The notes beneath the pieces were generated by a model. That model was not told the origin of the DNA. It made no database searches and saw only the letters and a program-made list of their open reading frames with translations. Shown one piece after another: positions 3,738-38,758 of a stretch of DNA of 42,380 bases. How positions within the stretch are numbered: the first letter of the stretch is position 1; each line of letters begins with the position of its first letter. Source of the stretch: Bacilli bacterium (GTDB taxonomy: Bacteria; Bacillota_I; Bacilli_A; RF39; UBA660); NCBI GenBank assembly GCA_017473105.1, contig JAFUNE010000003.1, positions 1 to 42,380 on the forward strand. The letters run 5' to 3'. A program made the position numbers and the translations under genes.

Positions 3738-3739
3738 AA

Positions 3740-4426: not shown

Positions 4427-4435
4427 ATTTACCTC

Positions 4436-5068
4436 CTATAATTTATGTTTTACTTTAATATATAAATCATTATATATTACATAAGTAACATAAGCAGTAA
4501 ATAAAAACATGAATACTTTTATTAATTTAGTATCAACTAAATCTACAACTTTTTCACCGAATGTTATCTCAACTTCTTCAACTACTTCTTCTTTTTCTTC
4601 AACTTTTATTCCTGACTCATAATTACTAATTGCACCTTCAACTAACTCTATAGTAGGATCAACTTGTAAATATTTATATGAGCAATATGAAACTTTACCC
4701 TCATATCCATAACACATTGTACTTCCATAAAATTCATTAAAATATGGTTGGTCTATATATATATATCTAGCAGGACCAGAACATCCAGATGGAGCAAACA
4801 ATTCTATTTTCATGTCCGTTCCTTCTTTAACACCTCTAATCTCTACCTTATTATCTACAATTTTATAATTAATACCATTATATTTAACTGTAAACTTTTC
4901 ATTAACATTATATAGTACAACATCAAACTTTTTTTGGATAGGATCAGGTATACTCTCCTCAGAAACATCACGAGCATAACCAGCATATTCTTTTTGAACT
5001 TCATAATTACATTCTGCACTAACAAAAATAGGTATAAACATAATTAAAAATAATAATATTTTTTTCAT
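4436..5068 (-). CDS. Secreted protein with C-terminal membrane anchor (210 aa)
   Basis: A signal peptide at residues 1-18 ends in FVSAEC. The extracellular part has Cys residues near both ends and a compact motif APSGCSGPARYIYIDQPYFNEF. An acidic Glu/Val-rich linker (about residues 150-172) leads to a transmembrane helix at about 185-201 and a short basic tail. The layout (signal peptide, cysteine-containing domain, linker, helix, basic end) matches the next gene, suggesting two related surface components. The start overlaps the end of the sortase-like gene at 5065-5068, so the pair is translationally coupled. No family recognised. Confidence 0.8.
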   Translation of the reverse strand: MKKILLFLIMFIPIFVSAECNYEVQKEYAGYARDVSEESIPDPIQKKFDVVLYNVNEKFTVKYNGINYKIVDNKVEIRGVKEGTDMKIELFAPSGCSGPARYIYIDQPYFNEFYGSTMCYGYEGKVSYCSYKYLQVDPTIELVEGAISNYESGIKVEEKEEVVEEVEITFGEKVVDLVDTKLIKVFMFLFTAYVTYVIYNDLYIKVKHKL

Positions 5069-6723
5069 TCTTTTTCCTCCTCAATTAGCACAGCATGAAC
5101 AACAAGTCTTCTATTGTTTTTTCCTGTACATGTTGATAATGTTAATATTTTTGAATTCTCATTAACTACTTCATTTGATTTAATAGTACTTCTATTTCTA
5201 ATCATTTTTATAAAATCATTTTTTTCATCTGCAGTTTCAAAATCAGTAACTAAATAATCAGTAGTATAATCTACTTTATAAATAGAAAATATTTTAAATT
5301 TATAACTTTGATTATTTAAATCAAAATTAACTATCATATTATCTGCATTCTTTCTCCAAGAAGAATCAAGAACAGTTTTCAAAGTACCAAACATAGTACC
5401 ATTTCCCATATTATGACCATATATAATAGTATTATCATCAAGTTCAGTTGAATTATTTCTATAATCCATATATATCCATCCCATACTTGACTTCTTTTTA
5501 TAAAAATCTCTTTTTAAATAATAACTATTATCACTATGTTGAACAACTGGATAAGCTATATTAGTATTCTTAACAACCAAGTAACCCTTAGTTTCAGAAT
5601 TAATCTTCTTAAGTTTATTAAAAGAATTTTCAAAACTATACTTACTCTTAACTTCTTCTTTAGTAATATTTTCTTCTACTGGAACTTCTATATCAGGTAA
5701 TGTTTCTTCAACAGTTTCATCTACATTTGTATTACCATTAACTATTTCATTAACACTAGTTTGATTATTATTTTCGTTTTTTAGTTCACTCATCAATTGA
5801 TTATTTAAAGTATCAACACTCATTTTTTCAACAAACTCATATGATTTAATAATAACAAGTGACACCACTGAAATATACATTCCAAATATAAATACTAATT
5901 TCAAATTATTAAAAGTTAATTGTTTAAATAAATTTTTACTAACAAATGAATCAGAATAAATAATTCTAAATTCACAAGTAAAGTCTTCTTTACATTTATC
6001 ACTTAATTCCCTTAACCATTCAAAATTATTAACTATAAAATTTCCCTTATCATATTCTTGATGTAAATAAACAATAACTTCTCTTGATTCATCATTACTA
6101 ACAAGATTTACAATAGATTCAATTAACTCTTTTGAATATACACATACATTAATAGCTCTTAACTTATAATTTATTTTTAAAAACTCTTTTAAATCACTCA
6201 TAAGTTCAGGATACTCTTCATTTATAGTAATAACTTTTTTATAATATAAACTATCTTTACTATCAGTATCATGAAGTTCTAAAAATTTATCAGTTATTTT
6301 TACTTCACTACTCATATGAACTTCTATATTCTTTTCATTAAATAAATGCTTAACATCAGAAGACATAAAATAACATCTAACTTCCCTTAAACACTCACAA
6401 GATAAAAATAATTCATAATCACTCATTGCTACTGTAGAAAAGAAATCTAATATTAAACATTGAATATTTAATAAATTAATAATGTCAGCTACATATTTAA
6501 ATGTAACCAATCTTTTTACTTTAATTAAATTAACATCAGGAAAATCACGTTTTATAAGTTCAATAATTTTATTAATATTTTTCTTAAAATATTTAAAATC
6601 ATATAAAAGAGAATCTTCTATAAAACTATTTTTATTAACTAAAGTCTTTTGTTCTTTAGTAATAGTCTTATAATCAAAGATTAACACATTAAGTTCAATT
6701 TTTAAACTTATATACTCTTTCAT
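5065..6723 (-). CDS. Class B sortase with large N-terminal cytoplasmic domain (552 aa)
   Basis: Sortases are membrane cysteine transpeptidases that join secreted proteins to the wall or to each other. The C-terminal 190 residues are a class B sortase. They contain GYLVVKNTNIAYPVVQ, then IIYGHNMGNGTMFGTL with the catalytic His near residue 437, TLSTC with the catalytic Cys at 532, and NNRRLVVHA with the catalytic Arg at 538-539. A single membrane helix lies near residues 278-298. Ordinary SrtB proteins are about 250 residues with a short N-terminus. Here roughly 275 extra residues precede the helix and would be cytoplasmic; I recognise no family there. It is the first gene of a minus-strand operon whose next four products are secreted or membrane anchored, so they are its probable substrates or partners. 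Start supported by an upstream GGAGAG. Confidence 0.88.
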   Translation of the reverse strand: MKEYISLKIELNVLIFDYKTITKEQKTLVNKNSFIEDSLLYDFKYFKKNINKIIELIKRDFPDVNLIKVKRLVTFKYVADIINLLNIQCLILDFFSTVAMSDYELFLSCECLREVRCYFMSSDVKHLFNEKNIEVHMSSEVKITDKFLELHDTDSKDSLYYKKVITINEEYPELMSDLKEFLKINYKLRAINVCVYSKELIESIVNLVSNDESREVIVYLHQEYDKGNFIVNNFEWLRELSDKCKEDFTCEFRIIYSDSFVSKNLFKQLTFNNLKLVFIFGMYISVVSLVIIKSYEFVEKMSVDTLNNQLMSELKNENNNQTSVNEIVNGNTNVDETVEETLPDIEVPVEENITKEEVKSKYSFENSFNKLKKINSETKGYLVVKNTNIAYPVVQHSDNSYYLKRDFYKKKSSMGWIYMDYRNNSTELDDNTIIYGHNMGNGTMFGTLKTVLDSSWRKNADNMIVNFDLNNQSYKFKIFSIYKVDYTTDYLVTDFETADEKNDFIKMIRNRSTIKSNEVVNENSKILTLSTCTGKNNRRLVVHAVLIEEEKE

Positions 6724-6750
6724 TACTCTCTCCTATAATTATCCATAATA

Positions 6751-6759
6751 ATAATATCA
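6751..6759 (-). promoter_or_regulatory. Extended -10 promoter for the sortase operon
   Basis: On the minus strand this reads TGATATTAT, a TGN-TATWAT extended -10, about 30 bp before the ATG at 6723. No good -35 is seen. The same TGNTATAAT form precedes many other genes here. Confidence 0.5.
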
Positions 6760-6769
6760 TATTTTTAAA

Positions 6770-6803
6770 CAAAAAAAAATACAGAACTATTCAATTCCGT
6801 ATT
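6770..6803 (-). terminator. Rho-independent terminator after the thioredoxin-like gene
   Basis: A 9-bp stem with one G-U type mismatch (6778-6786 with 6795-6803) overlaps the 3' end of the 174-aa gene. It is followed on the minus strand by a run of T (A-run 6771-6779 on plus). Confidence 0.75.
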
Positions 6804-7311
6804 CTTCAATCATATCCTCTACCAAATCTTCATTAATTAAATCAAATTCACTACATAATGCCTTCACAGCTTTCCCATCTTTTATATAAATAACTAACGG
6901 AGCTAACGAAATTTCACCACTAATTTCAGGAAATTTATTTCTCAACATAGATAAATACTTCCCTTCATTTTTTAAATCTGTAACATCCCAATAAATAACT
7001 TTGTCTAACAAAGACTCTTTTTTTAATAATTTATATATCTTTCTATCAAGACTTTTTAAACTATCATCTCTATAACTTATATATAAAATTGCCTCATTAA
7101 CTTCACTCAACGTAAAATCAAAGTCATCTGTATTAATTTGATTAATACTCTTATCACTAAAATAACTTACATTTATATAGTTTTCAACATAACTTAAATA
7201 TAAATTTCTTGATACTAATGTTAACACAACAACAATAACAGAAACAATCATTACTATATAATAGTTTTTTTCAGGTGTCTTCTTACTAAAAAAATTAAGT
7301 ATTTTCTTCAT
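6787..7311 (-). CDS. Membrane-anchored thioredoxin-fold-like protein, no CXXC (174 aa)
   Basis: One N-terminal membrane helix (about residues 20-38, IVMIVSVIVVVLTLVSRNLYL) is followed by an extracellular domain. Its pattern is EAILYISYRDDSLKSLDRKIYKLLKKE, then VIYWDVTDL, then LAPLVIYIKDGKAVKAL. This beta-alpha-beta order with a central APxxIYIKDGK strand is typical of thioredoxin-like folds. There is no CXXC pair where the redox site would be (only one Cys, near the C-terminus), so a disulfide reductase role is unlikely. It is a single transcription unit with its own terminator and an AGGAGG ribosome site before the start. A structural or adaptor role is possible but unproven. Confidence 0.65.
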   Translation of the reverse strand: MKKILNFFSKKTPEKNYYIVMIVSVIVVVLTLVSRNLYLSYVENYINVSYFSDKSINQINTDDFDFTLSEVNEAILYISYRDDSLKSLDRKIYKLLKKESLLDKVIYWDVTDLKNEGKYLSMLRNKFPEISGEISLAPLVIYIKDGKAVKALCSEFDLINEDLVEDMIEEYGIE

Positions 7312-7425
7312 AATTATCCTCCTAAATATAAATTAATTTTAACATAAATACATATATTTTAAAATAGATAAATATATCATTTTTCCAAAAATTATTATAT
7401 AATTTACAAAGAAAGAGGTTTTAAT

Positions 7426-7995
7426 ATGCATAATATTTTTAATACGGAATTATCATACATAAAAGATAATAGAATAAAAAACAGTTTAATAACAATCTTA
7501 AATAAACTACCAGATTATTTTTATGAAATAGAAACAAGTTCAACCGGAAAATATCACCCTGCATTTTCAAGTGGTAAACAAGGATTAATAAGACACACAA
7601 AAGCAGCTATTAGAATTGCAGTTGAATTAATGAATAATGAAGCACTTCAAAACTTTAATCAAAATGAAAAAGACTTAATTATTTTCTCTTTAATGATTCA
7701 TGATGGATTAAAATGCGGAAAAATAAAAAGTCAATATACAGCATTTGATCATCCAATATTAATTGCAAATTTAGTTAAAGAGAATGAAAGTGAATTAGAA
7801 TTAACTAAAGAAGAAGTTGAATTTGTATGCAAATGCGTAAAAACTCACATGGGACCATGGACAACAGATTATAGAGGAAACGAAGTACTAGAAGCACCAA
7901 AAGATAAATACCAAAGATTTGTTCATATGTGCGATTATCTATCTAGTAGAAAATTTTTAGATATAAAATTTGAAAATAATGAAATTGTTGATTAA
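7426..7995 (+). CDS. HD-domain phosphohydrolase-like protein (189 aa)
   Basis: The metal-binding HD pattern is clear: GLIRHTKAA, then the HD pair in LMIHDGLKCG, a following FDHP, KTHMGPW, and HMCDYLSSRK with the last Asp. HD enzymes hydrolyse phosphomonoesters or phosphodiesters, often of nucleotides or RNA ends. The length and spacing resemble stand-alone HD proteins and the C-terminal half of YhaM-type enzymes, but there is no OB-fold domain here. The start is supported by AAAGAGG a few bases upstream and TATAAT at 7398-7403. The substrate cannot be inferred. It is monocistronic except for the tiny ORF 53 nt downstream. Confidence 0.8.
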   Translation: MHNIFNTELSYIKDNRIKNSLITILNKLPDYFYEIETSSTGKYHPAFSSGKQGLIRHTKAAIRIAVELMNNEALQNFNQNEKDLIIFSLMIHDGLKCGKIKSQYTAFDHPILIANLVKENESELELTKEEVEFVCKCVKTHMGPWTTDYRGNEVLEAPKDKYQRFVHMCDYLSSRKFLDIKFENNEIVD

Positions 7996-8048
7996 AAAAC
8001 AAGTGTAAGTTCTATAAACCAACTAATAATATATTAGGAGGTGATAAA

Positions 8049-8168
8049 ATGTGTCAAAAAGAATTAGCTTACATATGTGCAGGAAAAAGATGCAGAACCA
8101 CAAGGTGGCATGAAAAATGTATCTTAATAATAAAAATAGTTTATTGCAAAATAAAAAGTATCTTCTAA
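8049..8168 (+). CDS. Small cysteine-rich ORF with a very strong ribosome site (39 aa)
   Basis: A near-perfect Shine-Dalgarno (TAGGAGGTGATAAA) sits directly before ATG at 8049. The frame encodes 39 codons ending TAA at 8166-8168. The peptide starts MCQKELAYICAGKRC and has five Cys and several Arg/Lys (C2, C10, C15, C24, C33), compatible with a small metal-binding or basic peptide. The last codons lie inside the terminator hairpin at 8153-8181. It may share the HD gene's transcript. No family recognised. It could be a spurious frame behind a chance ribosome site; the strength of the site is the main argument for it. Confidence 0.45.
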   Translation: MCQKELAYICAGKRCRTTRWHEKCILIIKIVYCKIKSIF

Positions 8169-8181
8169 GATACTTTTTTTG
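8153..8181. terminator. Bidirectional terminator shared by two convergent tiny ORFs
   Basis: The plus strand reads AAAAAGTATCTT, loop CT, AAGATACTTTTTTT. T-runs follow the stem on both strands, so it can stop transcription from either side. The stop codons of both flanking small ORFs lie in the loop and stem. Confidence 0.8.
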
Positions 8182-8329
8182 ATGACATAAAATCTTTTAA
8201 ACTTTCAAAATTCTCATTTCTAATAAATAATTCTTTTGCCTTATTATTATTGATAAAACGTTTTATGTATTTTAAATAACAAGAATTATCTTTTTTCATC
8301 ATATTAATTTTATTATTTAAATTCTTCAT
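8165..8329 (-). CDS. Small protein translationally coupled to the 863-aa gene (54 aa)
   Basis: ATG at 8327-8329 follows the TGA stop of the 863-aa gene (8332-8334) by two bases. Its ribosome site AGGGAG lies inside the last codons of that gene, a classic coupling arrangement. The product is basic and helical-looking: it begins MKNLNNKINMMKKDNSCYL and contains YIKRFINNNKAKELF. It ends at TAG (8165-8167) inside the shared terminator, overlapping the opposing 39-aa ORF by four bases. No known family. Its position suggests it works with the 863-aa protein. Confidence 0.6.
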   Translation of the reverse strand: MKNLNNKINMMKKDNSCYLKYIKRFINNNKAKELFIRNENFESLKDFMSSKKVS

Positions 8330-8331
8330 AA

Positions 8332-10923
8332 TCACTCCCTAATAACAACAACACTTAAATTACGCTCTCGTGCAATTCTTAAAATATCCTCATTTAAAGA
8401 AGAAGGAACTAATATAAAATCTGCTTCAATCTTTTCCTTAGATAAATTATCTTTATTTACTTTAACAGTAAACATGTCATCCACAAAACTAAATCTAACT
8501 GAACCGGTATTATTAAGTTTATTATATCCATAATAATTTTTCTTTAAAGATAAAACACTATCATAATAATAATTATGTCCATCATTATTAGTAGAATATA
8601 AAACTTTAAAATCTTGACCAATTACTGTATAAACTACAACATCTTCCTCTATACTCTTCTTAGCAGCTTTAGGATTAGCTTCACATAACAATTCTAAATC
8701 TTCTAAAGTAACTAATTGATGATTCAAAATATCAACACGATATTTTTTTAACTTACTAAAAAATTCTATTATACTAATTATATTTCTATCTATTTTTTCA
8801 TCAATTATATCTTCTAAATATGATAAAACAAGTCCATTATCATCAACACTAAATAACAGTTTTATCATTCTAAACATATTTATTTCACTACTAGTAAATA
8901 CTTTCTCATCATCTACCATAAATTCATTTAATAATTCCGGATCATACACTTCACATATTTCCTTAATTGTATCACTCTCAAGTAATCCAAAATCACCTTC
9001 AATATCATAAGGTTTATTAAATAAATATGTACACGCTAGATTTCTAATAATATTATTATCCTTAACAGCAAATAATTCACTAATTAATTTTTTAAGCAAA
9101 ACAATATCATAATTTTTCAATTGTTCTCTTTTTTCTATATTACAATTATTAGTATAAGTAGCAAGTAAATTTATAAGATTCTCTTCTTCATGTTCATCTA
9201 ATTCAACATTATCAACATCTCTTAAAATATCAACATAATATTGGAAATTCTCACATGCTTTAAATAAACATTCTTTATTTTCTCCATAAATATTAATTAA
9301 TAAACCATAATACTTCTTAAATAACTCATGACCATGTTTACTTTTATTAATAAAAAGCAAAGTCGAAGTATTTAAAAAATTATAACTTTTATATGCTTCG
9401 ATTAACTTAGGAGAAATAAAATCAAATAAAGTATCAAATAACTCTAAACTATTAATTTCATAAATCTCTTTATCATTATGAATTTCTCTATCATAAGCAA
9501 CACTTAGTAAATCATTAAGTAGTTTAACAGTTGGACTATTAACAACCTTTTTAGTACTTCCTTTATACAATAAAGACATACCTATAAAAACAGTAACTTT
9601 CTCTATTTTATTTTTAGTAATTATATTTTTATTAAATAAAACTTTTAACAAATCAAATATACAATTATAATCACGAGAGTATTCATACTTCTCATAATGA
9701 ACTATATAATCATTATAAATTTTATTAACAACTTTATAATAATTATCATATATTTCTTCACCATAATATGCCTTAAATACATTTAAACATCTAAAGTTAC
9801 AATCTATTATAGTTTTCTCTTTCATTTCACTTGAAAAATCATTATAAAATAAAGGAACTACATAAGGAATTACATAATTAACATCAATTTTAATCAATGC
9901 AACAATTTGTTCAATTGTTAAATTTTGTATTATCTCAATTATATCTTCAGTATATTGATATGAAGTATCACTACTATTTTTATCATATCTATATACCTTC
10001 CCTTTAGCATTTAATAAACCTTTATTAACAAGCATATCAATAGTTTCACGAATAGACTTACTCTCAATATTTGATAAAAGACCATGAACTATTTCTAACC
10101 TATGATCCTTAGTACTTTTTAAAGAACTAATATTAACATACTTAATCAAATTTAAATCATATTGTAAAAGTTTAATTAATGTTTCCTTGTCAACAGAATT
10201 AATCATATAAGGATTTTTATTAATATATTCTACTTGAACATCAATAGGAACTTTGCTTAATAATGTAATATCTTCCTTTATTAAATCAATTTGTTTTTTA
10301 ATAAATTTATCCCTAGCTTGTCCATTAATAAATTTATTAAATTTTTCATCCTCAGCATATTTATTCTGAATCTCTTGTGAAGCATATTTAATAAACATAG
10401 GACAAGAATCTATAACATATTCCCATTGTCTATCAGTTAAATCATCTTTTATTTTACTAATAATATTCTCAGTCTCTTTTATATCAACATTAACAAGCAC
10501 ATCAATTACTCTTTTTAAATCAACCATATGTAACTTAGCAACATCTTCAGGCTGCGTAAAATACAAAGTTAAATAAGAATTAACCTCTTCCTCTGTTAAA
10601 TTAATAGCATTTGAATTAGTAAAAAATTTATTGTCATTAAGCCATAAAGAAATAAGTTTTTTCTTAGCTTCAGTAGAACCATATTCAAACATATTTAAAT
10701 TACTATTTAAACGAGAAATTTGAAATTCAAGAGGTAAAATTCTAATAATTGATGGCACTTTAAAAAATAAGTAACTAAGTACTATTTCATTATTTTCAAA
10801 TTCTTTATTATCTAAATAAGCTTGTTCTTTTTCCTTATCAGATAATTTATCTAAAGACTTAATAAAATTATTAGCCTTTTTTTGAATTTGTCTTGTTTGC
10901 ATTTGTTGAAATATAGACGCCAT
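8332..10923 (-). CDS. Large, mostly helical protein of unknown function (863 aa)
   Basis: There is no signal peptide or membrane helix, so it should be cytoplasmic. After an N-terminal charged helix (MASIFQQMQTRQIQKKANNF), the first 700 or so residues look like stacked helices rich in Leu, Ile, Asn and Asp. Recurring helix-turn-helix units resemble HEAT- or ARM-like solenoids. The last 120 residues change character to a beta-rich stretch (VVVYTVIGQDFKVLYST, GSVRFSFVDDMFTVKV) and end FILVPSSLNEDILRIARERN, like a small alpha/beta domain. I recognise no catalytic motif. An extended -10 (TGATATAAT on the minus strand, 10956-10964) and a GAGG ribosome site precede it. A 54-aa gene is coupled to its end. 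Confidence 0.8.
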   Translation of the reverse strand: MASIFQQMQTRQIQKKANNFIKSLDKLSDKEKEQAYLDNKEFENNEIVLSYLFFKVPSIIRILPLEFQISRLNSNLNMFEYGSTEAKKKLISLWLNDNKFFTNSNAINLTEEEVNSYLTLYFTQPEDVAKLHMVDLKRVIDVLVNVDIKETENIISKIKDDLTDRQWEYVIDSCPMFIKYASQEIQNKYAEDEKFNKFINGQARDKFIKKQIDLIKEDITLLSKVPIDVQVEYINKNPYMINSVDKETLIKLLQYDLNLIKYVNISSLKSTKDHRLEIVHGLLSNIESKSIRETIDMLVNKGLLNAKGKVYRYDKNSSDTSYQYTEDIIEIIQNLTIEQIVALIKIDVNYVIPYVVPLFYNDFSSEMKEKTIIDCNFRCLNVFKAYYGEEIYDNYYKVVNKIYNDYIVHYEKYEYSRDYNCIFDLLKVLFNKNIITKNKIEKVTVFIGMSLLYKGSTKKVVNSPTVKLLNDLLSVAYDREIHNDKEIYEINSLELFDTLFDFISPKLIEAYKSYNFLNTSTLLFINKSKHGHELFKKYYGLLINIYGENKECLFKACENFQYYVDILRDVDNVELDEHEEENLINLLATYTNNCNIEKREQLKNYDIVLLKKLISELFAVKDNNIIRNLACTYLFNKPYDIEGDFGLLESDTIKEICEVYDPELLNEFMVDDEKVFTSSEINMFRMIKLLFSVDDNGLVLSYLEDIIDEKIDRNIISIIEFFSKLKKYRVDILNHQLVTLEDLELLCEANPKAAKKSIEEDVVVYTVIGQDFKVLYSTNNDGHNYYYDSVLSLKKNYYGYNKLNNTGSVRFSFVDDMFTVKVNKDNLSKEKIEADFILVPSSLNEDILRIARERNLSVVVIRE

Positions 10924-15534: not shown

Positions 15535-15662
15535 AATACATCCTTTCTATCTACTATCATTATATAAATTAATTATATATTAAATATTAGTCAAATTCAA
15601 TAAAGAATTAAAATCACTCAATAATAAAAAATGAATATAATATCTTGAAAGTGAGGATTAAT

Positions 15663-15867
15663 ATGAAAAGAATAATAATCTCTATAATTTTTATTATCTC
15701 AATATTTATAACTATTATTTTAACAACACCTAAAGATAATCAAAATAATAAAATAATAGTTTCAGAAGTAACACACTCTATTTTCTATACACCTTGGTAT
15801 GTAGCAATAGAAAAAGGATACTTTAAAGATGAAGGATTAAATATAGAAGTACAACTAACACCAGGTG
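15663..15867 (+). pseudogene. 5' part of ABC transporter substrate-binding protein gene, split by the element
   Basis: ATG at 15663 follows the ribosome site AAGTGAGG (15649-15656). It encodes an N-terminal membrane/signal segment without a lipobox Cys, then VTHSIFYTPWYVAIEKGYFKD and EGLNIEVQLTPG. This is the start of NMT1/SsuA-type substrate-binding proteins. At 15864-15867 the sequence leaves the family pattern, reads nine codons of element DNA and stops at 15891-15893. The missing remainder begins at 21711 in the matching frame. Joined, the two parts give 975 nt, or 324 residues, a normal family length. As it stands the product would be a 76-residue fragment with no ligand site. Confidence 0.9.
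15862..15867 (+). repeat. attL core CAGGTG
   Basis: This is the left copy of the 6-bp sequence shared with 21705-21710. To its right, TGTGAATAA (15866-15874) is the exact inverted repeat of TTATTCACA at 21698-21706 at the other end of the element. Confidence 0.85.
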
Positions 15868-15885
15868 TGAATAATCATAATGTAA

Positions 15886-17373
15886 TCAACTAAATTTATA
15901 ATAAATATTTACTTTCTTATCTTTTGAAACAGTTATTTTCTCAATTAAATGAATTATTAAATCTCGATCAATACTTAGTTTTATTAATTCTTTAACATTA
16001 AAATCAACTTTATTTTTATCATTTTTTTCTATCTCATAATTTGTATTTTTCAAATCTTTTAAAGTAGAATTTAATAATATAATAAATACATCTTCATCAA
16101 TAATACCTTTTATTTTATCATCATATATATTTTTAATTTTATTTTCTAAATAATTTTTTTGATTCTTAAAAAATTGTTTTTTTCTAAACAATTCATCTTT
16201 TTGTTGATAAGTTGTTAACATAAATTTCTCTATCTCAGATAATTTTACCCTATTTAAATGACATCTTAATAACCTCAGTATTTCTTTTTCAAAACTATCA
16301 TAAATCATAAAATGAGAAACACAATGATTTCTTGAGTAGCCATTGCAATTTAATGTATAATGAATATTATTTTCATTTCTTTTATCAACCCTCATCCCAA
16401 GTAAACAACCACATTCTTCACAATATATCAAACCTTCTAATAATTGTTTTTTTCGTTTTGTTTTCAACTGTTGTCTATTTCTATGTCTATTATTTATTAA
16501 TTCAAATTCTTCTTCACTTACAATAGCTTGATGAGTATTTTTTACCTCTATCCATTGATTTTTATCTAATCTAATTCTTTTCATAGATTTATAGTTTAAC
16601 TTTGCTTGAACACATTGAACCATATTTCCAGTATACATTTTATTAGATAATATTTGACGTACCGAACTAGATGACCACTTTTCAGGATTTTTAAATCTTT
16701 TAGATATTTTATTATTTTTATAAACAATTGGAGTGATAAATTTTTCCTGATTTAATATATTTGCAATTTGAGTATTACTTTTATTATCAAGAGCAAGATC
16801 AAAAATCTTTCTAACTATAAAAGAAACATTCTCATCAATAACTAATTTATATTTATTGTCTTCACTTCTTTTATATCCAAAAGCTGGACTACTTCCTAAA
16901 AACAATCCCTGTTTTTTACGAACACGTAATATTGATCTAATCTTTTTAGAACTATCTTTACTTTGAATATCATTAAATAATGATTTAAATGGAGCAATAT
17001 CATTATTAGTACTATCAATTGATGTATCAATATTATCAAGTATTGAAACATATCTTACTTTTTTAAGAGGAAAATATTGTTCTATGTAATAACCACTTTG
17101 TATATAATCTCTACCCAATCTTGATAAATCTTTAGTTACAACCATATTTATTTTACCATCTTCTATATCCTTAATCATTTTATTAAATCCAGGTCTATCA
17201 AATGTAGTACCACTATAACCATCATCTACATATTCACTATATAATTTCAAATTATTATCTTCAATATAAGATAATATTAAACTCCTTTGGTTTATTACGC
17301 TTTCACTTTCTTTATTATTATTTTTATACTCATCTTCTTTTGATAATCTAATATACATACCAACTGTATACAT
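15886..17373 (-). CDS. Large serine recombinase (495 aa)
   Basis: This enzyme integrates and excises the element by serine-mediated strand exchange. The resolvase domain covers about residues 1-150: the nucleophile Ser11 in YIRLSKEDE, catalytic Arg in the same motif, DDGYSGTTFDRPGF, and TKDLSRLGRDYI with further active-site Arg. A recombinase domain follows (FGYKR, then KWSSSSVRQILSNKMYTGNM). A zinc ribbon comes next (YCEECGCLLGM with the second pair C-N-G-Y and C-V near residues 343 and 351), then a coiled coil rich in Lys (about 380-450). The length is typical of TnpX/TndX-type large resolvases. All catalytic residues look intact, so it could be active. It is encoded at the left end, reading towards attL. 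Confidence 0.95.
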   Translation of the reverse strand: MYTVGMYIRLSKEDEYKNNNKESESVINQRSLILSYIEDNNLKLYSEYVDDGYSGTTFDRPGFNKMIKDIEDGKINMVVTKDLSRLGRDYIQSGYYIEQYFPLKKVRYVSILDNIDTSIDSTNNDIAPFKSLFNDIQSKDSSKKIRSILRVRKKQGLFLGSSPAFGYKRSEDNKYKLVIDENVSFIVRKIFDLALDNKSNTQIANILNQEKFITPIVYKNNKISKRFKNPEKWSSSSVRQILSNKMYTGNMVQCVQAKLNYKSMKRIRLDKNQWIEVKNTHQAIVSEEEFELINNRHRNRQQLKTKRKKQLLEGLIYCEECGCLLGMRVDKRNENNIHYTLNCNGYSRNHCVSHFMIYDSFEKEILRLLRCHLNRVKLSEIEKFMLTTYQQKDELFRKKQFFKNQKNYLENKIKNIYDDKIKGIIDEDVFIILLNSTLKDLKNTNYEIEKNDKNKVDFNVKELIKLSIDRDLIIHLIEKITVSKDKKVNIYYKFS

Positions 17374-17376
17374 AAA

Positions 17377-17457
17377 TCACCTTCTTTTCTTAAAATAATC
17401 AATTAATATACATTCTAAACTCTTATCTAATTTATTAAAATTTTCTTTATAAACCAT
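17377..17457 (-). CDS. 26-aa ORF immediately before the recombinase
   Basis: ATG at 17455-17457 follows a strong TGGAGG ribosome site. The product starts MVYKENFNKLDKSLECILI and ends with a basic KKRR tail. Its TGA (17377-17379) lies 3 bp before the recombinase ATG at 17373, and the recombinase's own AAGGTG site lies within its last codons. Translation is therefore probably coupled. Short ORFs in this position are common before such recombinases; it may be a leader that sets recombinase translation. No family assigned. Confidence 0.5.
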   Translation of the reverse strand: MVYKENFNKLDKSLECILIDYFKKRR

Positions 17458-17501
17458 AATTCCTCCATTTAATTTTATTTACATAAAATATTTTTATTAA
17501 T

Positions 17502-17531
17502 AAAAAAACTACTAAATTAATTTAGTAGTTT
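17502..17531 (-). terminator. Strong terminator of the cargo operon
   Basis: A perfect 11-bp stem AAACTACTAAA / TTTAGTAGTTT (17506-17516 with 17521-17531) with a 4-nt loop is followed on the minus strand by seven T. It separates cargo transcription from the recombinase. Confidence 0.9.
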
Positions 17532-18277
17532 AATATATATGGTTCACTTTTTGTTCCATTTCCAGAAGAAATTTTTAAATCTTTATTTAAATAAACGACT
17601 GGTCTTATCATTGCTTTTTCATTTTCGTTTTCCTTTAAAAAATCAAAATTTACATATACAGATGGAGTCATTGTTAACCATTTTTGAGAAGAATATAAAT
17701 AATTAGATTTTCTATTTACCCAAAAGAAAATATTAAGATATTGATCTAACGTAACATAAGTAGTTGCATTTGCAATTTCAACAACACTCAACATACCAAC
17801 ATTATATTCTTTACTTTCAAGTTCAACTAATTCATTTAATGATTCAAAAGAAGTTAATTTACTAATATCATAATAAGTAGAATCAAATTCACCTTTAACA
17901 ATATTATCATTATTTTTTAAACCATTAAAATAATCATTATTTAAATAATCTATTACTTCATTATATTCACTTTCATATTCCAATAAATCATTTCTAACTA
18001 TTTTTATAGTACCATCTTTTTCAAGAGATACAATTCTCCATAATTCATCATTAAATTTTATATAATTATCTATATTTCCTCTAAAAATATACTTATCTTT
18101 TATTTTATAAAGACCATTTCCACTTTCAACTATTTCATATAAATTCATAACTCTAAGAGCTAATGTATCACCAATATTTGTTACTTTCTTATCATCTTTT
18201 TTTACTTCCTTATGAAAACAAAAAACTAACAATAATAATATAATTAATAAAATAAAATATATATACCTCTTTTTCAT
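17522..18277 (-). CDS. Membrane-anchored surface protein, element cargo (251 aa)
   Basis: An N-terminal membrane segment (residues 5-21, YIYFILLIILLLLVFCF) precedes an extracellular domain with YIFRGNIDNYIKFNDELWRIVSLEKDGTIKIVRNDLLE, then DYLNNDYFNGL, and ends MIRPVVYLNKDLKISSGNG. This order (W-R-I-V-S ... I-V-R ... YLNN-Y-F ... RPVVYL) is a recurring domain of Bacillota surface proteins, close to what is called DUF6273. A related arrangement occurs in the 399-aa protein at 29312. No catalytic site is known for it. It follows the second sulfotransferase by 17 nt in one operon that ends at a strong terminator, so it may be that protein's surface partner. Confidence 0.75.
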   Translation of the reverse strand: MKKRYIYFILLIILLLLVFCFHKEVKKDDKKVTNIGDTLALRVMNLYEIVESGNGLYKIKDKYIFRGNIDNYIKFNDELWRIVSLEKDGTIKIVRNDLLEYESEYNEVIDYLNNDYFNGLKNNDNIVKGEFDSTYYDISKLTSFESLNELVELESKEYNVGMLSVVEIANATTYVTLDQYLNIFFWVNRKSNYLYSSQKWLTMTPSVYVNFDFLKENENEKAMIRPVVYLNKDLKISSGNGTKSEPYILNY

Positions 18278-18294
18278 AGCAATTCTCTCTTTTA

Positions 18295-20154
18295 TTAATT
18301 AAAATTTATTACTTTCTCAGTATCATACATAATATCATTTACTTTTACATATAATGAATAAATTCCATTATCTTGTGAAACTCTTATAGAATTACTCTCT
18401 TTTTTATTTTTTTCTTTGTAATTATAACTATATGTCTTATAATTTTTGGAAACTAAATATACATTTACTTCATCACTCTCTAAAAAATCATCTGTTAAAA
18501 TAATTCTATTAATATAAGTTTCAACATTTCCATTATATTTTTTAGCATTTTTAAATTCATTACCTAAACTTAACGTTAATACTTCTTCATTCTCTATCTC
18601 TAAATTTGATATTCTCTTATAATCTTGTACTTCATAATTATCAGTTATATCTTTATATAAAGAAGATATTTTATAAGTTCTATAAATTAAATCAGGTGAA
18701 GTTGCTCTAAAAACAATATTATCATTTTTATCAATTTCTTCAATAACACCATTTAAATATTTTTCATCATTTATTGTAATATTATTAACATTTTTATAAG
18801 CTTCTTGAGAAATAGACCATCCATAAGTAATTAATTTATTACCATCATCTAAAATATCAAAATAACCAGCAACTTTACTAAACTCTTTTTTATTAGATGA
18901 ATATTCCCAAACAGATTCAATAGTTTTATTACTATAATCTATTTTATATAAATTAACACTAGTATAATTATTAATAAAATCCTTTAACTTTATACTTTTA
19001 TTAAACATATCATAATCGTTATTATGAACACCAAGTAACCCATCTTCAGTAATAAATGCACTATGTTGACCAGCAGTATATCTTGTATTACCCATAGGTT
19101 TTAAAAAATAATTTTTAAATGCATCAGAATATATTTTTTTATCACCAAATATCCATTTTATCTCATAATTTTCCATATTTATCATCATTATAGAATTAAG
19201 ACCCCTAACAGATATTAAAAGTTCTTTAGAATCTTTAAAATATTGAGCAGAATTAATTACAATATCATAATTAGTACCTAATTTTTTTGTCCATTCAGAA
19301 TCAATTTTATATAAAATATCATATAAATCAAAACTTTCTATTATCTTTCCAGTATTTAAATCCATCGTATAAACAACGGATTCTAAAAAATCAGATTTAT
19401 CTTCAGAACCTAATACTAACATTTTACTTTCACTCAAAGGTATAAGTTCATGATGATAACCAAAGTCAGAAACATACTGATTATATATTTTGCCTAAATA
19501 ATCCATTTCAATAAAACTAGAATAATTAATCTTAACTCCATTTGTTCCTTGACGCGGATCACTTATATAAAAATGACCATTAGATAAGTATTCAATATCA
19601 CCTGCATAATCTCCAACTATATACCAAACAAGTTTACCACTACTATCATATATCGCATTACTTTCAAAATTAGGAGAAACAAAATATAAACCATCTTCAT
19701 TTAAAGTTTTCTCCACATTAATTCTATTACCATCAAACTCTTCTGTTACAACAGAATAATTAACAGATTTATCATCTAATGTTAATTTAATAATATTATT
19801 ATAATTATCATATAAACCATAAATAGGAATAACATGACTTTTCGTTTTTTCTGTCTTAGTCACATCTTTACCATTTATATTTACACCAATACTAACCTCA
19901 TCATCTGTATTAAAAATAATCAAAGCAGTAAGCGGACAAAGTTCATATGGATTAACTATAACTTTTGCTTTTTCAAATGTATAATCACCTTTTATGTATT
20001 CTTTTATTTTTTTATCCATTTGAGTTTGTTTTTCAATTATCTCACCATATGCATAAATAATATCTTTTTCTTTAGTAAATTTATTTCCATAACTAACAAA
20101 ACAAATTATTATAAAAAATACAATAAATATTAAAACATAAATTCCCTTTTTCAT
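18295..20154 (-). CDS. Aryl-sulfate sulfotransferase (AssT)-like protein, one active-site His replaced (619 aa)
   Basis: AssT enzymes move a sulfate group between phenolic compounds through a sulfated His. I start it at ATG 20154, which has AAGGTGG upstream; the frame runs 51 codons further but overlaps the preceding terminator. A membrane helix (residues 4-21) anchors it outside. An N-terminal beta domain (about 60-160) precedes a six-bladed propeller with EDGLYFVSPNFESNAIYD, GYHHELIPL (H234/H235), SVRGLNS (R317) and TAGQHSAF (H364). These fit the E. coli active site H252, R374 and H436. The counterpart of H356, normally HxNS, reads VINS, so that His appears to be Val299. Activity may be altered. 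Second gene of the element cargo, with its own promoter. Confidence 0.82.
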   Translation of the reverse strand: MKKGIYVLIFIVFFIIICFVSYGNKFTKEKDIIYAYGEIIEKQTQMDKKIKEYIKGDYTFEKAKVIVNPYELCPLTALIIFNTDDEVSIGVNINGKDVTKTEKTKSHVIPIYGLYDNYNNIIKLTLDDKSVNYSVVTEEFDGNRINVEKTLNEDGLYFVSPNFESNAIYDSSGKLVWYIVGDYAGDIEYLSNGHFYISDPRQGTNGVKINYSSFIEMDYLGKIYNQYVSDFGYHHELIPLSESKMLVLGSEDKSDFLESVVYTMDLNTGKIIESFDLYDILYKIDSEWTKKLGTNYDIVINSAQYFKDSKELLISVRGLNSIMMINMENYEIKWIFGDKKIYSDAFKNYFLKPMGNTRYTAGQHSAFITEDGLLGVHNNDYDMFNKSIKLKDFINNYTSVNLYKIDYSNKTIESVWEYSSNKKEFSKVAGYFDILDDGNKLITYGWSISQEAYKNVNNITINDEKYLNGVIEEIDKNDNIVFRATSPDLIYRTYKISSLYKDITDNYEVQDYKRISNLEIENEEVLTLSLGNEFKNAKKYNGNVETYINRIILTDDFLESDEVNVYLVSKNYKTYSYNYKEKNKKESNSIRVSQDNGIYSLYVKVNDIMYDTEKVINFN

Positions 20155-20179
20155 AATATCCCACCTTAAATACATTTTT

Positions 20180-20209
20180 ATTATATCAGTATAAATATTA
20201 AAAAAACAA
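20180..20209 (-). promoter_or_regulatory. Promoter of the second sulfotransferase gene
   Basis: On the minus strand, TTGTTT (20204-20209), an 18-bp spacer, then TATAAT (20180-20185) in the extended form TGATATAAT. It lies between the preceding terminator and the 20154 start. Confidence 0.6.
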
Positions 20210-20238
20210 TAAAAAAAGCAATATATACCATATTGCTT
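20208..20238 (-). terminator. Terminator of the first sulfotransferase gene
   Basis: A 9-bp stem AAGCAATAT / ATATTGCTT (20216-20224 with 20230-20238) is followed on the minus strand by seven T. It directly follows the stop at 20240. Confidence 0.85.
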
Positions 20239-20239
20239 C

Positions 20240-21613
20240 TTAATATTTATATACCCTATAAACAGACGATTCAACATCAGGATACTCAAATGTAAAATAT
20301 ACTTCATTTGTCTCTAAATTTATTTCTTGAAAACCCTTTTTTCCCTTATTAATACTTCTACCATAATCCACCACGTATATATTATTAGTCATATCACTTG
20401 GCCAAACACTACCAAGCTGATAAGAAAGACAATCTAAATTGTAATTTTTAATGTTCTCAACTTTCATATTTTCCTGATCTAAATTAAATACAACAACAGA
20501 ACTTTTTCCATCATCAAGATAAACAAAATCAGATTTAATACTTTTATTATTATTACTAAAAACCATATATGTATTATCTTTTCTAACTATTGAATGTTGT
20601 CTATAAAATATATGTGTATTAAAATCATTATTTTTATTTCCACCTAATCTCCAAATAATATCTCCAATATTAATGTCTAATTTAACAATCTCATTTGAAT
20701 GCCTAAAACTTAATAATAAATTATTATCACTATCTAATTCAAATGAATTAAAGTGATGTTGAACTCTACTAATTATTTTCTCTCCATCTCTACCAATATC
20801 ATCAAAATCACTAATTGGAAACTCATGCTCCCAAAGAACTTTATCATCACTAATTTTAGTAATCACTTCAATTTCATCATCATTAATTATATTAACTAAA
20901 TAAGTATTTAAATCTAATAACAAATAATCATGTGGATCTATAAAACCATCATTTTTAAATTTCTTTATTAAATTATACTCTTCATCCAATATACATAAAT
21001 TATCTTTACCATCTTCATCTTCATCAAGATAACTATAATATATTTTATTATCTATAATCTCCTTCTTAAATAGATATGAATTATATCCACCTTCTCTATA
21101 AAAAATAATATTTCCTTCATTATTCATTTTTACTAAGAAAATTCCACTACCAAAATTACTCTTCCCATAACTAGCAGCATAAGTAGTAAAATAAAAATCC
21201 CCATTCGTTGTTGATTCACCAATAGTATTAAACACAGGCATAGACTCAGGTAAAGTATTAATAATATATTTTTTATATTTACTTTCACCCTTATATTTTA
21301 TTTCTAATTCTATTTTATTTTTATTATTTATTTCAACAATACCAAGGTTCTTCTTTTTATTAACTTTTTCACCATTAACTTTTATATTTGAAAAATAGTT
21401 GTCTTTCTCAATTACAATATCAAATTCAGAATTAAGAGTAATCAAATTTACTACAGAATCTGTTTTACCATTAACAAATGTATACTCCTCATTTGCAATA
21501 ATTAACTTAACATCATTTGGAATAAACATATAAGTAATAAAAAAAGAAACAATAATTAATAATACTACAATAACTATAATAAACTTATGTTTTTTTAGAA
21601 ATCTTTTTTTCAT
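20240..21613 (-). CDS. Arylsulfotransferase-family protein (Arylsulfotran_2-like, 457 aa)
   Basis: An N-terminal membrane helix (about 10-29) places the rest outside the cell. A short beta domain (30-120) leads into a propeller with the family signatures. FIDPHDYLLLD carries H228, RVQHHFNSFELD carries H287, LLLSFRHSNEIVKLD carries R304, and IFYRQHSIVRKDNTYMVFSN carries H340. These four line up with H252, H356, R374 and H436 of E. coli AssT, so by motif reading the full active site is present. IGDIIWRLGG is the typical blade closing. The natural substrate is unknown; the family transfers sulfate between phenols. It is transcribed alone from a promoter beside attR, and ends at its own terminator. 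Confidence 0.85.
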   Translation of the reverse strand: MKKRFLKKHKFIIVIVVLLIIVSFFITYMFIPNDVKLIIANEEYTFVNGKTDSVVNLITLNSEFDIVIEKDNYFSNIKVNGEKVNKKKNLGIVEINNKNKIELEIKYKGESKYKKYIINTLPESMPVFNTIGESTTNGDFYFTTYAASYGKSNFGSGIFLVKMNNEGNIIFYREGGYNSYLFKKEIIDNKIYYSYLDEDEDGKDNLCILDEEYNLIKKFKNDGFIDPHDYLLLDLNTYLVNIINDDEIEVITKISDDKVLWEHEFPISDFDDIGRDGEKIISRVQHHFNSFELDSDNNLLLSFRHSNEIVKLDINIGDIIWRLGGNKNNDFNTHIFYRQHSIVRKDNTYMVFSNNNKSIKSDFVYLDDGKSSVVVFNLDQENMKVENIKNYNLDCLSYQLGSVWPSDMTNNIYVVDYGRSINKGKKGFQEINLETNEVYFTFEYPDVESSVYRVYKY

Positions 21614-21638
21614 ACATTTACCTCATACTATTATATTT

Positions 21639-21668
21639 ATTATATACTTAGTTTATTTTAAAGAACAA
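21639..21668 (-). promoter_or_regulatory. Promoter of the first sulfotransferase gene, beside attR
   Basis: On the minus strand, TTGTTC (21663-21668), an 18-bp spacer, then TATAAT (21639-21644). It lies about 37 bp inside the right end of the element. Confidence 0.6.
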
Positions 21669-21683
21669 GTTTAAATATAAAAA

Positions 21684-21692
21684 TGATATAAC
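21684..21692 (+). promoter_or_regulatory. Possible outward-facing promoter at the right end of the element
   Basis: The plus strand reads TGATATAAC, an extended -10 one base from consensus, pointing out of the element into the broken binding-protein gene and the ABC genes. No convincing -35 is visible. Confidence 0.35.
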
Positions 21693-21704
21693 TTTATTTA
21701 TTCA

Positions 21705-21710
21705 CAGGTG
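21705..21710 (+). repeat. attR core CAGGTG
   Basis: This is the right copy of the 6-bp core. TTATTCACA (21698-21706) on its left is the inverted partner of TGTGAATAA at 15866-15874. The reading frame of the binding protein resumes at GGT (21707) with no stop. Confidence 0.85.
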
Positions 21711-22480
21711 CTGATAAAGTTGCTTCATCTATTTTATCTGAAGAAGCACATATTGGTTTTTCTGGACCAGAAGCAACCATATATGTATATAACAATAGTA
21801 ATCAAAAACTTATTTCTTTTGCATCCCTAACAAAAAAAGATGGACAATTCATAGTCGGAGATTGCAAACTAAAAAACACTTTTACATTAAATGATTTAAA
21901 AAATAAAACAATATTAGCAGGAAGAAATGGCGGAATGCCTTTAATGATGTTTGAATATGCATTAAAAAATAATAACATAAATAAAAGTGATTTAGTAATA
22001 GATACAAGTGTAGAATTTGCAAATTTAACAAGTGCTTTTATTTCAAAACAAGGAGACTTTGTAAACTTATTTGAACCAAATGCAACGTCATTAGAAAATC
22101 AAAATATCGGATGTGTTTTATCATCACTTGGTAACCTAACTGGAAATGTCCCATACACAACCTTCTATGCAAAAGAAGAATATATAAAAAACAATAAAGA
22201 TATAATTAAAAAATTTAATAAAGCGTTAAATAAAGGAATAAAATTCACAAAAGAAAATAATTCATATGATATAGCTCAAATCATTCAAAAGCAATTTCCT
22301 GATACAAATATAGCTGATTTAGAAAATATAATAGAAAGATATAAACAAATCGATGCATGGTACGATAACACCAAATTAAATATAAAAGATTATGATAAAC
22401 TTCAAGAAATAATGATGTATGGTAACAGTATAAACAAAAAAATAGATTCATCGTTACTAATAACAAATGAATTCAACTAA
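21711..22480 (+). pseudogene. 3' part of ABC transporter substrate-binding protein gene
   Basis: The frame is open from the attR core and continues the family pattern exactly where the 5' part breaks: after TPG comes ADKVASSILSEEAHIGFSGPEATIYVYN. Then follow the hinge and ligand motifs LKNKTILAGRNGGMPLMMFEY, GDFVNLFEPNA and NVPYTTFYAKEEYI. The first internal ATG, at 21935, is not a native start. These motifs are those of NMT1/THI5-SsuA-type binding proteins for sulfonates, taurine, thiamine precursors or similar solutes; I cannot pick the ligand. The 3' end overlaps the ATPase gene by 14 nt, so translation of the ATPase may have depended on this gene being intact. Confidence 0.88.
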
Positions 22481-23213
22481 ACTACTACAAGTTAATAACT
22501 TGTCAAAAACATTTTACACAAAAAAAGATGAACTTAAAGTAATAGATAATATCTCTTTTGATGTATTTGAAAAAGATATTGTTGCTCTAATCGGACCATC
22601 AGGATGTGGAAAAAGTTCAATATTAAATATAATATCAAACCTAGATAAACAATATAAAGGAACAATATCTAAAAAAGAAAATATTAAAATTGCATATATG
22701 TTTCAAGAAGACACTTTATTTGATTGGTTAACTATTTATGAAAATGCAGTTTTTAACCTTAAATTAACAAAAAATCTAACAAAAGAAAATATAGAATATG
22801 TTAACAACTTGTTAAGAAAATATAAACTTTACGAATTTAAAGATAACTATCCAAATACCCTATCTGGCGGAATGAAACAAAGACTATCTCTTATTAGAAC
22901 ACTTTCATTAAAACCAAATATATTACTTTTAGATGAACCTTTTTGTGCACTTGATTACCAAACTAAATTAAAAATTATAACAGATGTTTATAATATCATT
23001 AAAGAAGAAAAAATAACTGCAATTATCGTTACTCATGATATAGAAGAAGCAATATCACTTTGTAATAAAATAATTGTATTAACAAACAGACCAACTAAAA
23101 TTAAACATACCCACATAATTAAAATAAATGAAAATCCATTAACAATAAGAAATACAAAAGAATTTTCATATTATCATAATTTAATATGGGAGGAAATAGA
23201 AAAAAATGTCTAA
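22467..23213 (+). CDS. ABC transporter ATPase, SsuB/TauB/ThiZ-like (248 aa)
   Basis: This is the energising subunit of the importer whose binding protein is split upstream. Walker A GPSGCGKSS covers residues 43-51, Q-loop Q80 lies in YMFQED, signature LSGGMKQR is at 132-139, Walker B ILLLDEP follows with D156 and E157, and the H-loop is in IVTHDIEEA. The short form, with DWLTIYENAVFNL after the Q-loop, is typical of nitrate/sulfonate/taurine-type importers. The start overlaps the binding-protein gene by 14 nt and the end overlaps the permease gene by 8 nt, a tight three-gene operon. All motifs are intact, so decay after the insertion is not yet visible. Confidence 0.92.
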   Translation: MNSTKLLQVNNLSKTFYTKKDELKVIDNISFDVFEKDIVALIGPSGCGKSSILNIISNLDKQYKGTISKKENIKIAYMFQEDTLFDWLTIYENAVFNLKLTKNLTKENIEYVNNLLRKYKLYEFKDNYPNTLSGGMKQRLSLIRTLSLKPNILLLDEPFCALDYQTKLKIITDVYNIIKEEKITAIIVTHDIEEAISLCNKIIVLTNRPTKIKHTHIIKINENPLTIRNTKEFSYYHNLIWEEIEKNV

Positions 23214-23973
23214 AGAACATTTATTATATTTAAAAAACATAAAAAGAAAAAAACAAATTATTTTTTTTTCACAAATACTATTATTAATAACGTTCATACT
23301 CGCATGGGAATTATTAGCAAAAAATAATATTATTAATTCATTTATAACAAGTAGTCCATCTAATATAATTAAAACAATAATTGAATTATATAACCAAAAT
23401 AATTTATTTATTCATATAATAACAACAATTAATGAAGTTTTACTTTCTTTCTTTATAACGTCTACTCTATCTCTTATAATTGCTATAGTTTTATATTCAA
23501 ATGAAACAATAGAAAAAATAATAGACCCTTATATAACAATCTTAAACTCATTACCTAAAGTAGCTCTTGGTCCATTAATCATAATATATTTAGGGGCAAA
23601 CACAAAAAGCATAATAACTATGTCTATTTTAATATCAATAATACTATCAACGCAAAACATATTAAATGGATTTAAAAATACCAATAAAAATAAAATTAAA
23701 TTATTAAAAACATTAAATGCATCAAAAAAAGATATAATAACAAAACTAGTAATACCATCAAATAAACAAACAATAATAAATTCATTAAAAATAAATATTT
23801 CAATGTGTTTAATCGGAACTATTCAAGGTGAATTTCTTACATCTAAATCAGGAATTGGATACCTTATAATGTATGGAACACAAGTATTCAACTTAAATCT
23901 TGTCATGACAGGAATAATACTATTAACTATAATTTCATATATTATGTATTTGGCTGTAAATAAATTAAAATAA
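23206..23973 (+). CDS. ABC transporter permease, SsuC/ThiX-like (255 aa)
   Basis: About six membrane helices, beginning at residues 14-36 (IIFFSQILLLITFILAWELLA). The family opening SSPSNIIKTIIELYNQN follows the first helix. The cytoplasmic coupling loop contains the EAA-like stretch NASKKDIITKLVIPSNKQTIINSLKINISM. Near the end come GTIQGEFLTSKSGIGYLIMYG and a last helix, as in BPD-type permeases of the sulfonate/taurine/thiamine-precursor group. Two copies would form the channel with the ATPase. It ends at a strong terminator. Without the binding protein the importer should be inactive, unless another binding protein serves it. Confidence 0.9.
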   Translation: MSKEHLLYLKNIKRKKQIIFFSQILLLITFILAWELLAKNNIINSFITSSPSNIIKTIIELYNQNNLFIHIITTINEVLLSFFITSTLSLIIAIVLYSNETIEKIIDPYITILNSLPKVALGPLIIIYLGANTKSIITMSILISIILSTQNILNGFKNTNKNKIKLLKTLNASKKDIITKLVIPSNKQTIINSLKINISMCLIGTIQGEFLTSKSGIGYLIMYGTQVFNLNLVMTGIILLTIISYIMYLAVNKLK

Positions 23974-33651: not shown

Positions 33652-33683
33652 TAAAATAAGATGATAATAAGGGTGTGATTAGT

Positions 33684-38541: not shown

Positions 38542-38571
38542 AAAAGAAGAATAAAAATTCTTCTTTTTTTT
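38541..38571 (+). terminator. Terminator of essC-esaB
   Basis: The stem AAGAAGAAT (38544-38552) / ATTCTTCTT (38557-38565) is followed by a T-run, directly after the stop. Confidence 0.85.
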
Positions 38572-38728: not shown

Positions 38729-38758
38729 CAAAAAAAAGTATTTCATTTGAAATACTTT
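38729..38758 (-). terminator. Terminator of the six-gene Esx operon
   Basis: The stem AAAGTATTTC / GAAATACTTT (38735-38744 with 38749-38758) is followed on the minus strand by eight T. It is 25 bp after the last stop. Confidence 0.85.

Follow-up and report, generated by a model that had tools for sequence, protein, structure and literature searches.

Introduction

Sporulation gene-intervening elements that have been described include skin in sigK, SPbeta in spsM, vfbin in spoVFB, gin in gerE and yin in yabG (as given in passages of PMC10747680 and PMC5595907), and figures in a survey of the interruption elements of cyanobacteria put multiple elements in 10 of 87 genes, with four in one nifD (PMC4874684). 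In this study we analyzed a 42,380-nucleotide stretch of DNA from a Bacilli bacterium (assembly GCA_017473105.1, contig JAFUNE010000003.1, positions 1 to 42,380; hereafter the window), in which an NMT1/SsuA-type binding-protein gene is cut in two by a 5,843-bp element that encodes a large serine recombinase (LSR). The gene is the first of an operon for a binding protein, an ATP-binding cassette (ABC) ATPase and a permease, and the results showed that in relatives this operon holds seven recurrent insertion sites (four, two and one per gene), with up to four elements per operon. We regard it as rather probable that the window element is a gene-intervening element of the sporulation type and that it leaves the mother-cell chromosome by excision, as skin, gin and yin do. 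The broader proposal, that programmed elimination of multiple DNA elements takes place in the mother cells of an order of uncultured spore-formers, with at least seven LSR lineages and an amidase lineage specialised on sigma-K genes, is held tentatively, as plausible and a little short of the expected outcome. All functions named below are predictions from sequence.

Exact rejoining of the split binding-protein gene

The 5' piece of the gene (15663..15867, plus strand) comprises the first 68 codons up to the shared core, after which foreign DNA follows, and the 3' piece (21705..22480, plus strand) stays in frame to 22480. Both pieces matched PF09084 (NMT1), the former at profile positions 5-28 (E 7.9e-6) and the latter at positions 34-212 (E 8.6e-13), which together with the LSR bears out the initial annotation of a serine-recombinase element splitting an ABC substrate-binding gene. 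The sequence CAGGTG is present at 15862 and at 21705, common to both junctions, and joining the pieces there gave 975 nt and 324 amino acids without an internal stop, the in-frame rejoining that the annotation had also claimed. In a protein search with full coverage, 321 of the 324 residues of the joined product were the same in the intact natural protein P0001 and 320 in P0002, and TPGADKVAS was unchanged across the junction in both. Because these intact proteins match the joined product, the empty-site allele occurs in nature, joined as predicted; a look for the empty site in relatives had been proposed as a check, and it thus returned intact alleles with the expected junction. The empty site (attB) of the window element is CTAACACCAGGTGCTGATAAAG.

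The first start codon of the 3' piece lies about 230 bp beyond the junction, and the gene is for this reason likely ON only after excision; the idea that the two pieces work as a split protein was rejected on the same ground. A chance join was ruled out by the intact natural twins, and an assembly artefact by the recurrence of insertions at the same codons with an LSR present each time. Two separate genes at this place in relatives had been named as the finding that would speak against an insertion, which is not applicable here, as all 59 intervals examined in the binding-protein gene hold an LSR.

The element in the window

The element extends between the two CAGGTG copies (15868..21704), its 5,843 bp counting one copy. 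The left junction (attL, 15862..15874) consists of CAGGTG and the inner arm TGTGAATAA at 15866-15874, and the right junction (attR, 21698..21710) consists of the inner arm TTATTCACA at 21698-21706 and then the core. The joined element ends read TTATTCACA-GG-TGTGAATAA, a perfect 9-bp inverted repeat about GG, as expected for the attP site of an LSR. The core was refined by comparison with other genomes, where the shared part was GGTG or longer at each junction compared of the site used in the window, termed S1 (codon GGT|G of GADK).

The LSR (15886..17373, minus strand; 495 amino acids) contains Resolvase, Recombinase and zinc ribbon domains according to its domain matches and falls into the S1 clade of the tree described below. 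It is antisense to the split gene and terminates about 19 bp short of the left core; among solved structures, the nearest to it in sequence is that of TnpX (E 3.2e-25). A 26-amino-acid open reading frame (ORF; 17377..17457, minus strand) lies directly upstream, ending before the LSR start, and is a candidate for the directionality factor of this enzyme.

The cargo, also on the minus strand, comprises an ORF of 251 amino acids without a Pfam match (17522..18277) and two arylsulfotransferase-like proteins, one at 18295..20307 (PF05935, PF17425) and one at 20240..21613 (PF05935, PF14269). The true start of the former is probably downstream of the listed one, because the two ORFs overlap. Searches of the four larger ORFs of the element against Pfam and NCBIfam gave no phage structural or replication family and no mobilisation gene family, and matches in phages and plasmids were all below 60% identity. 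Viral contigs were also considered as carriers of the empty site; four matched the pattern, and they were rejected, as none of the binding protein, ATPase, permease and LSR was detected there by tblastn.

Seven insertion sites in related genomes

A recombinase-profile scan of genome contigs was carried out, and its best 80 loci were mostly titled Bacilli, Clostridia or other Firmicutes, the best four being Bacilli or Firmicutes. When the intact binding protein was searched in 16 scan genomes, 13 matched, and the gene was in pieces in 6 of these 13, in some cases three or four pieces. The S1 site was also used in G001-G004, each with an LSR beside it, and two further sites appeared at the first reading of the junctions. 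The survey covered 385 genomes of the order of G003, of which at least 323 matched; 84 genomes with suspicious matches were re-searched for coordinates and the regions were fetched. The window would belong to the same order, judging from the similarity of its operon and UvrD neighbour. Named records of the relatives were mostly metagenome-assembled genomes.

For the binding-protein gene, 59 single-contig elements (51 genomes and the window) were found at four recurrent sites, with 7 elements at S1 near residue 68, 5 at SB near residue 95, 25 at S2 near residue 142 and 22 at S3 near residue 190. Each of them contained an LSR ORF, antisense to the gene in 58 of the 59. The ATPase gene (22467..23213, plus strand) and the permease gene (23206..23973, plus strand) are intact in the window and split in relatives, the ATPase at the LSGGM-QR motif near residue 140 and at the HDL-EA motif near residue 195, and the permease near residue 206 in many genomes. 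An LSR was present in all 25 primary ATPase/permease intervals examined within one fetched locus (A1 10, A2 4, P1 11), the A2 and P1 enzymes being shorter (365-479 amino acids) and matching the profile more weakly. The same examination found no LSR in two additional tandem intervals, in two displaced copies or in two between-gene insertions. Several elements may occupy one operon, which was split at SB, S3, A1 and A2 in G140, at S1, S2 and S3 in G002, and at S2, S3 and P1 in G090.

In these counts, G174, which has an intact gene and a displaced 3' piece, was left out of the elements and kept among the 51 promoters discussed below, and a spurious fragment of G142 was dropped beforehand. The automatic junction finder misplaced several S1, S2 and SB joins, including that of the window, so that reliance is placed on the sites and not on each printed core. 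One permease join (L265) did not rejoin.

Small ORFs were found at the same place upstream of the LSR in most S1 and S2 elements. Those preceding the LSR fell into three size classes, of about 26-40 amino acids for S1 and S2, mostly 45-70 for S3 and 83-95 for most SB elements, which may be regarded as candidate directionality factors; a few elements had no small ORF, or an unrelated one, at this place. Seven small ORFs upstream of LSRs gave no Pfam match above the cut-off.

Some further arrangements were observed. Displaced or duplicated 3' pieces were seen in L223 (G174), L237 (G082), L266 (G115) and L236 (G132), where either an intact binding-protein or permease gene is accompanied by an extra 3' piece kilobases off, or two permease 3' pieces stand in a row, which suggests that elements stand in tandem or carry a 3' end of their own. 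Insertions without an LSR were located between intact binding-protein and ATPase genes in L258 (G093; 2394-9269, 6.9 kb) and L256 (G215; 2764-5204, 2.4 kb). The S1 LSRs of G003 (L173, 2667-3560) and G004 (L175, 8772-9662) have only 296-297 amino acids, matching residues 1-295 of the 495 in the window enzyme, and the metagenome proteins P0221 and P0226 (297 amino acids) are likewise short; perhaps these represent a shortened form that is kept.

Prevalence and control genes

The prevalence of the insertions was estimated by a census of 127 genomes drawn evenly from the order, from which the spurious binding-protein hits of G044 and G079 were removed. The binding protein was found in 106 of the 127 genomes. 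Its gene was split in 34 of the 106, with the pieces on one contig in 23 cases and across contigs in 11; of the others, 71 were intact and 1 was partial. The remaining 21 genomes gave no real match. Any gene of the operon was split in 45 of 109 genomes, 38 of them on one contig. For 31 of these 38, the split was backed by pieces or a truncated ATPase in the fetched DNA, and of the remaining seven, six rest on an unfetched long gap between binding protein and permease and one (G093) is the between-gene insertion without an LSR. Of the 18 such long gaps, fetching for the ATPase covered all but those of G027, G053, G054, G068, G099 and G133; the split permease of G090 was filed as intact by the census rule.

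As a control, MetG in the same 127 genomes was full length in 107, split across contig ends in 2 and split on one contig in none, with 18 genomes that had only distant relatives not counted. For PflB, the 56 genomes with an orthologue showed no insertion split on one contig, 2 splits across contigs and 1 frameshift-like case. The difference in same-contig splits between the binding protein and MetG was significant (Fisher P 2e-8, computed with 110 in place of 109 MetG genomes).

The operon promoter and the link to sporulation

A sigma-K-type promoter of the operon was identified by motif alignment at 15616..15642 (plus strand), with -35 AC (15616-15617), a 16-nt spacer and -10 AATATAATA (15634-15642). 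A sigma-K promoter of C. difficile is described with -35 AC and -10 CATATAAT, from which sigma-E differs by ATA at -35 (listing in PMC3789822), and a spacing of 15 +/- 1 is stated between longer blocks (PMC517825, in the part concerned). One motif was shared by the 51 readable upstream regions, window included, with -35 AC, 16 nt and g[C/A]ATATAATA, mostly 28-37 nt before the start; the C of the -35 AC was present in 47 of 51 and was the most informative column of the -35. G141 and G063, in which the start was not readable, were left out, and the promoter rows are related by descent. The relaxed pattern [ACG]C-N16-[CA]ATANNNTA was found in 38 of 51 operon promoters versus 5 of 362 control genes (of at least 150 amino acids, from the low-GC contigs of the window and L001-L080); for the strict pattern, AC-N16-CATANNNTA, the counts were 7 of 51 and 1 of 362, respectively.

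In addition, Spo0A is encoded in 122 of the 127 census genomes, and among 14 control genomes only B. subtilis scores. The genes ytlA, ytlC and ytlD, for an ABC component, an ATPase and a permease, appear as sigma-K genes in a core sporulation list (PMC3416734), ytlC is listed under sigma-K elsewhere (PMC3789822), and the function of YtlCDA is stated as unknown in the relevant passage of PMC11466899. The present operon is likely the counterpart of ytlACD.

Control of the recombinase or the small ORF by sporulation was also considered and was not supported by the promoter searches. A CATANNNT box and a G....T at 16 nt before the small ORFs (19 observed against 0.36 expected) were set aside, as the rows are related and the search selects for the box.

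A second target, the amidase gene

The sister clade of the S1 recombinases comprises 25 LSRs, and 22 of the 25 loci, and no other of L001-L159, hold a piece of an amidase gene by motif search, with both halves present in 7. The elements of this clade cut an N-acetylmuramoyl-L-alanine amidase gene at SNHINAGG|GAEVIYALRN. By Pfam, one 5' piece contains Amidase_3 and one 3' piece contains five LysM stretches; no leader was evident by eye. Seven amidase promoters were readable; five followed the strict AC-N16-CATANNNTA, and two had GC for AC, one of these with a 17-nt spacer. Two such amidases of C. difficile are listed under sigma-K (entries of PMC3789822), and cwlC and cwlH of B. subtilis are described as lysing the mother cell late (PMC517825).

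In four other loci, L006, L015, L018 and L021, the amidase frame is lost before the DAGHGG motif, which suggests a second insertion site there. Split LysM amidases with sigma-K-type promoters were seen in L006, L007, L009, L010, L013, L015, L018, L021, L027, L047, L071 and L080.

Recombinase clades

In a quick tree of 84 operon LSRs, each of the seven sites corresponded to one clade, with 6 label changes, the minimum for seven labels, in comparison to a mean of 50.4 with shuffled labels and none of 200 shuffles as low as 6. The joining of A2 and P1 in this tree is possibly a long-branch effect. The seven clades stayed whole in FastTree after 146 background LSRs from the genome and viral scans had been added.

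Proposed mechanism

We propose that the LSR element occupies a fixed target in the first gene of an operon probably transcribed by sigma-K in the mother cell. The LSR, perhaps together with the preceding small ORF, would recombine the element ends, so that a circle is released and the open frame rebuilt, most likely in the mother cell during sporulation. Because the mother cell dies, the chromosome in the spore would keep the element at no cost, and mother-cell excision would also explain how several elements can sit in one operon that stays open.

Excision in the mother cell is proposed by analogy with skin, SPbeta, vfbin, gin and yin. Several points weigh against this proposal. The counterpart relationship with ytlACD is no more than a likely one. 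The strict sigma-K pattern is missed by 44 of the 51 promoters, often because the -10 has A at the place of C; a TATAAT resembling that of sigma-A lies within ATATAATA, yet no TTGACA column appears in the aligned promoters. There is no excess of the sigma-K motif upstream of the LSR genes, and for the small ORFs before the LSRs a sigma-K pattern did not rise above shuffles, nor did a sigma-E pattern do so clearly. The exact attP string is absent from viral contigs, which is weak evidence. Finally, intact near-twins are abundant in metagenomes, and the elements may come and go instead of being excised on schedule.

Alternative explanations

A less probable explanation, which nevertheless deserves serious attention, is that the elements are ordinary site-specific cassettes that favour a conserved operon unneeded in growth as a safe harbour, with rare excision or strain replacement and no developmental control. 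The cargo is diverse, as is expected of such passengers; 201 ORFs of at least 120 amino acids fell into 137 clusters, and each Pfam, PADLOC or PHROG family was matched by at most three of the 106 cluster representatives searched. The LSRs also travel. Identities of 95-96% were seen between some S3 LSRs from hosts with a silent divergence of more than 1.3 in the binding-protein gene, and G002 and G142 carry an S2 LSR of the same nucleotide sequence, hence the elements move horizontally between genomes. Intact twins are common; joining at the core TA of the SB element of G242 gave a product with 330 of 331 residues the same as in a natural intact protein, and at least 48 intact clusters of metagenome proteins are 93-99% identical to it. 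Site-specific integrative and mobilizable elements with serine recombinases are, moreover, described as disrupting host-dispensable genes (PMC5704250, in the section concerned). On the other hand, seven LSR lineages on one short operon, with a sister lineage on a sigma-K-type gene, exceed what generic conservation predicts. The fragments are open and dN/dS between the split genes of the closest pairs is 0.03-0.21, and intact ancestry can explain both. From the low dN/dS and the open fragments the gene is therefore under selection, with use of the split copy unproven because intact alleles are common; the low dN/dS in G035/G189/G242 and G091/G370/G164/G322 was dropped as functional proof in view of the 48 or more clusters close to joined G242.

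Far less probable is a vegetative phase switch, in which stochastic excision and re-insertion toggles import in growing cells. The initial annotation had suggested a genetic switch for import, and the part of this suggestion that stood is the exact reversibility at the sequence level, with both forms present in nature. A free-running switch in growing cells was not supported, as developmental excision fits better given the sigma-K-like promoter and the Spo0A of the group, and an operon with three or four elements would be switched on only after several excisions independent of one another. That the insertion killed a dispensable gene whose pieces are now decaying is very improbable, since, even if the 21 genomes without a real match show that the gene can be lost, the window pieces share 99% identity with intact alleles and are open throughout, and all 9 stops seen in 113 gene fragments (15,705 codons) lie in alignment overhangs beyond a junction.

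Elsewhere in the window (33675-40757), an FtsK/SpoIIIE-like ATPase (33675-38297) near a run of WXG100-like small proteins (38783-40757) resembles, by eye, a type VII secretion locus.

Comparison with known systems

Similar to TnpX and TndX of Tn4451 and Tn5397, the window LSR combines Resolvase, Recombinase and zinc ribbon domains, and TndX on plasmids is about 37% identical to it. The Tn4451-type transposons have a GA core dinucleotide at their junctions, in contrast to GG within GGTG in the window core, and no mobilisation gene was recognised in the window element. The targeting of one gene cluster by distantly related LSRs, as observed here, is a described pattern; in that description competence genes are enriched and TndX-like LSRs are multi-targeting, whereas the TnpX-like LSRs of the present operon are tied to one site each, and the text of the source gave no mention of this operon under the terms searched (PMC10083194).

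Intervening elements in sporulation genes and multi-element interruption in cyanobacteria are already known, and what appears to be new here is one operon with seven sites and its prevalence. In listings of the open-licence PMC literature we found neither this operon as a target, nor seven sites in one operon, nor such prevalence, nor a paper naming RF39 together with a serine recombinase. Sporulation intervening elements are presented as isolated cases in five genes (PMC10747680, as far as its account goes), and here one operon houses seven recombinase lineages. This amounts to a natural experiment in which to ask why mother-cell genes are preferred by mobile elements, and it draws attention to a transporter for sporulation whose substrate is unknown. 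It also provides as a resource dozens of LSRs with paired attachment sites at seven targets in one short operon. If the proposal is true, the assembly of a single spore-specific transporter would in some species depend on two to four separate excisions, a bacterial counterpart to the internal eliminated sequences of ciliates.

Like skin, SPbeta, vfbin, gin and yin, as these are described in PMC10747680 and PMC5595907, the present elements encode a recombinase, lie inside a gene, allow precise restoration and have short core repeats, and gin, like the window element, is described without phage genes. A key difference is that those, as described there, are single elements in single genes, while here, as read from sequence alone, a single operon is targeted at seven sites by seven LSR clades and can carry up to four elements, and this is seen in many genomes of the order. 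In this respect they resemble the interruption elements of heterocyst-forming cyanobacteria, for which several elements per gene, several fixed variants per gene, serine recombinases among the enzymes and a terminally differentiating cell are reported; these differ in belonging to another phylum, in residing mostly in nitrogen-fixation genes and in mixing serine (48) and tyrosine (52) enzymes (as tabulated in PMC4874684).

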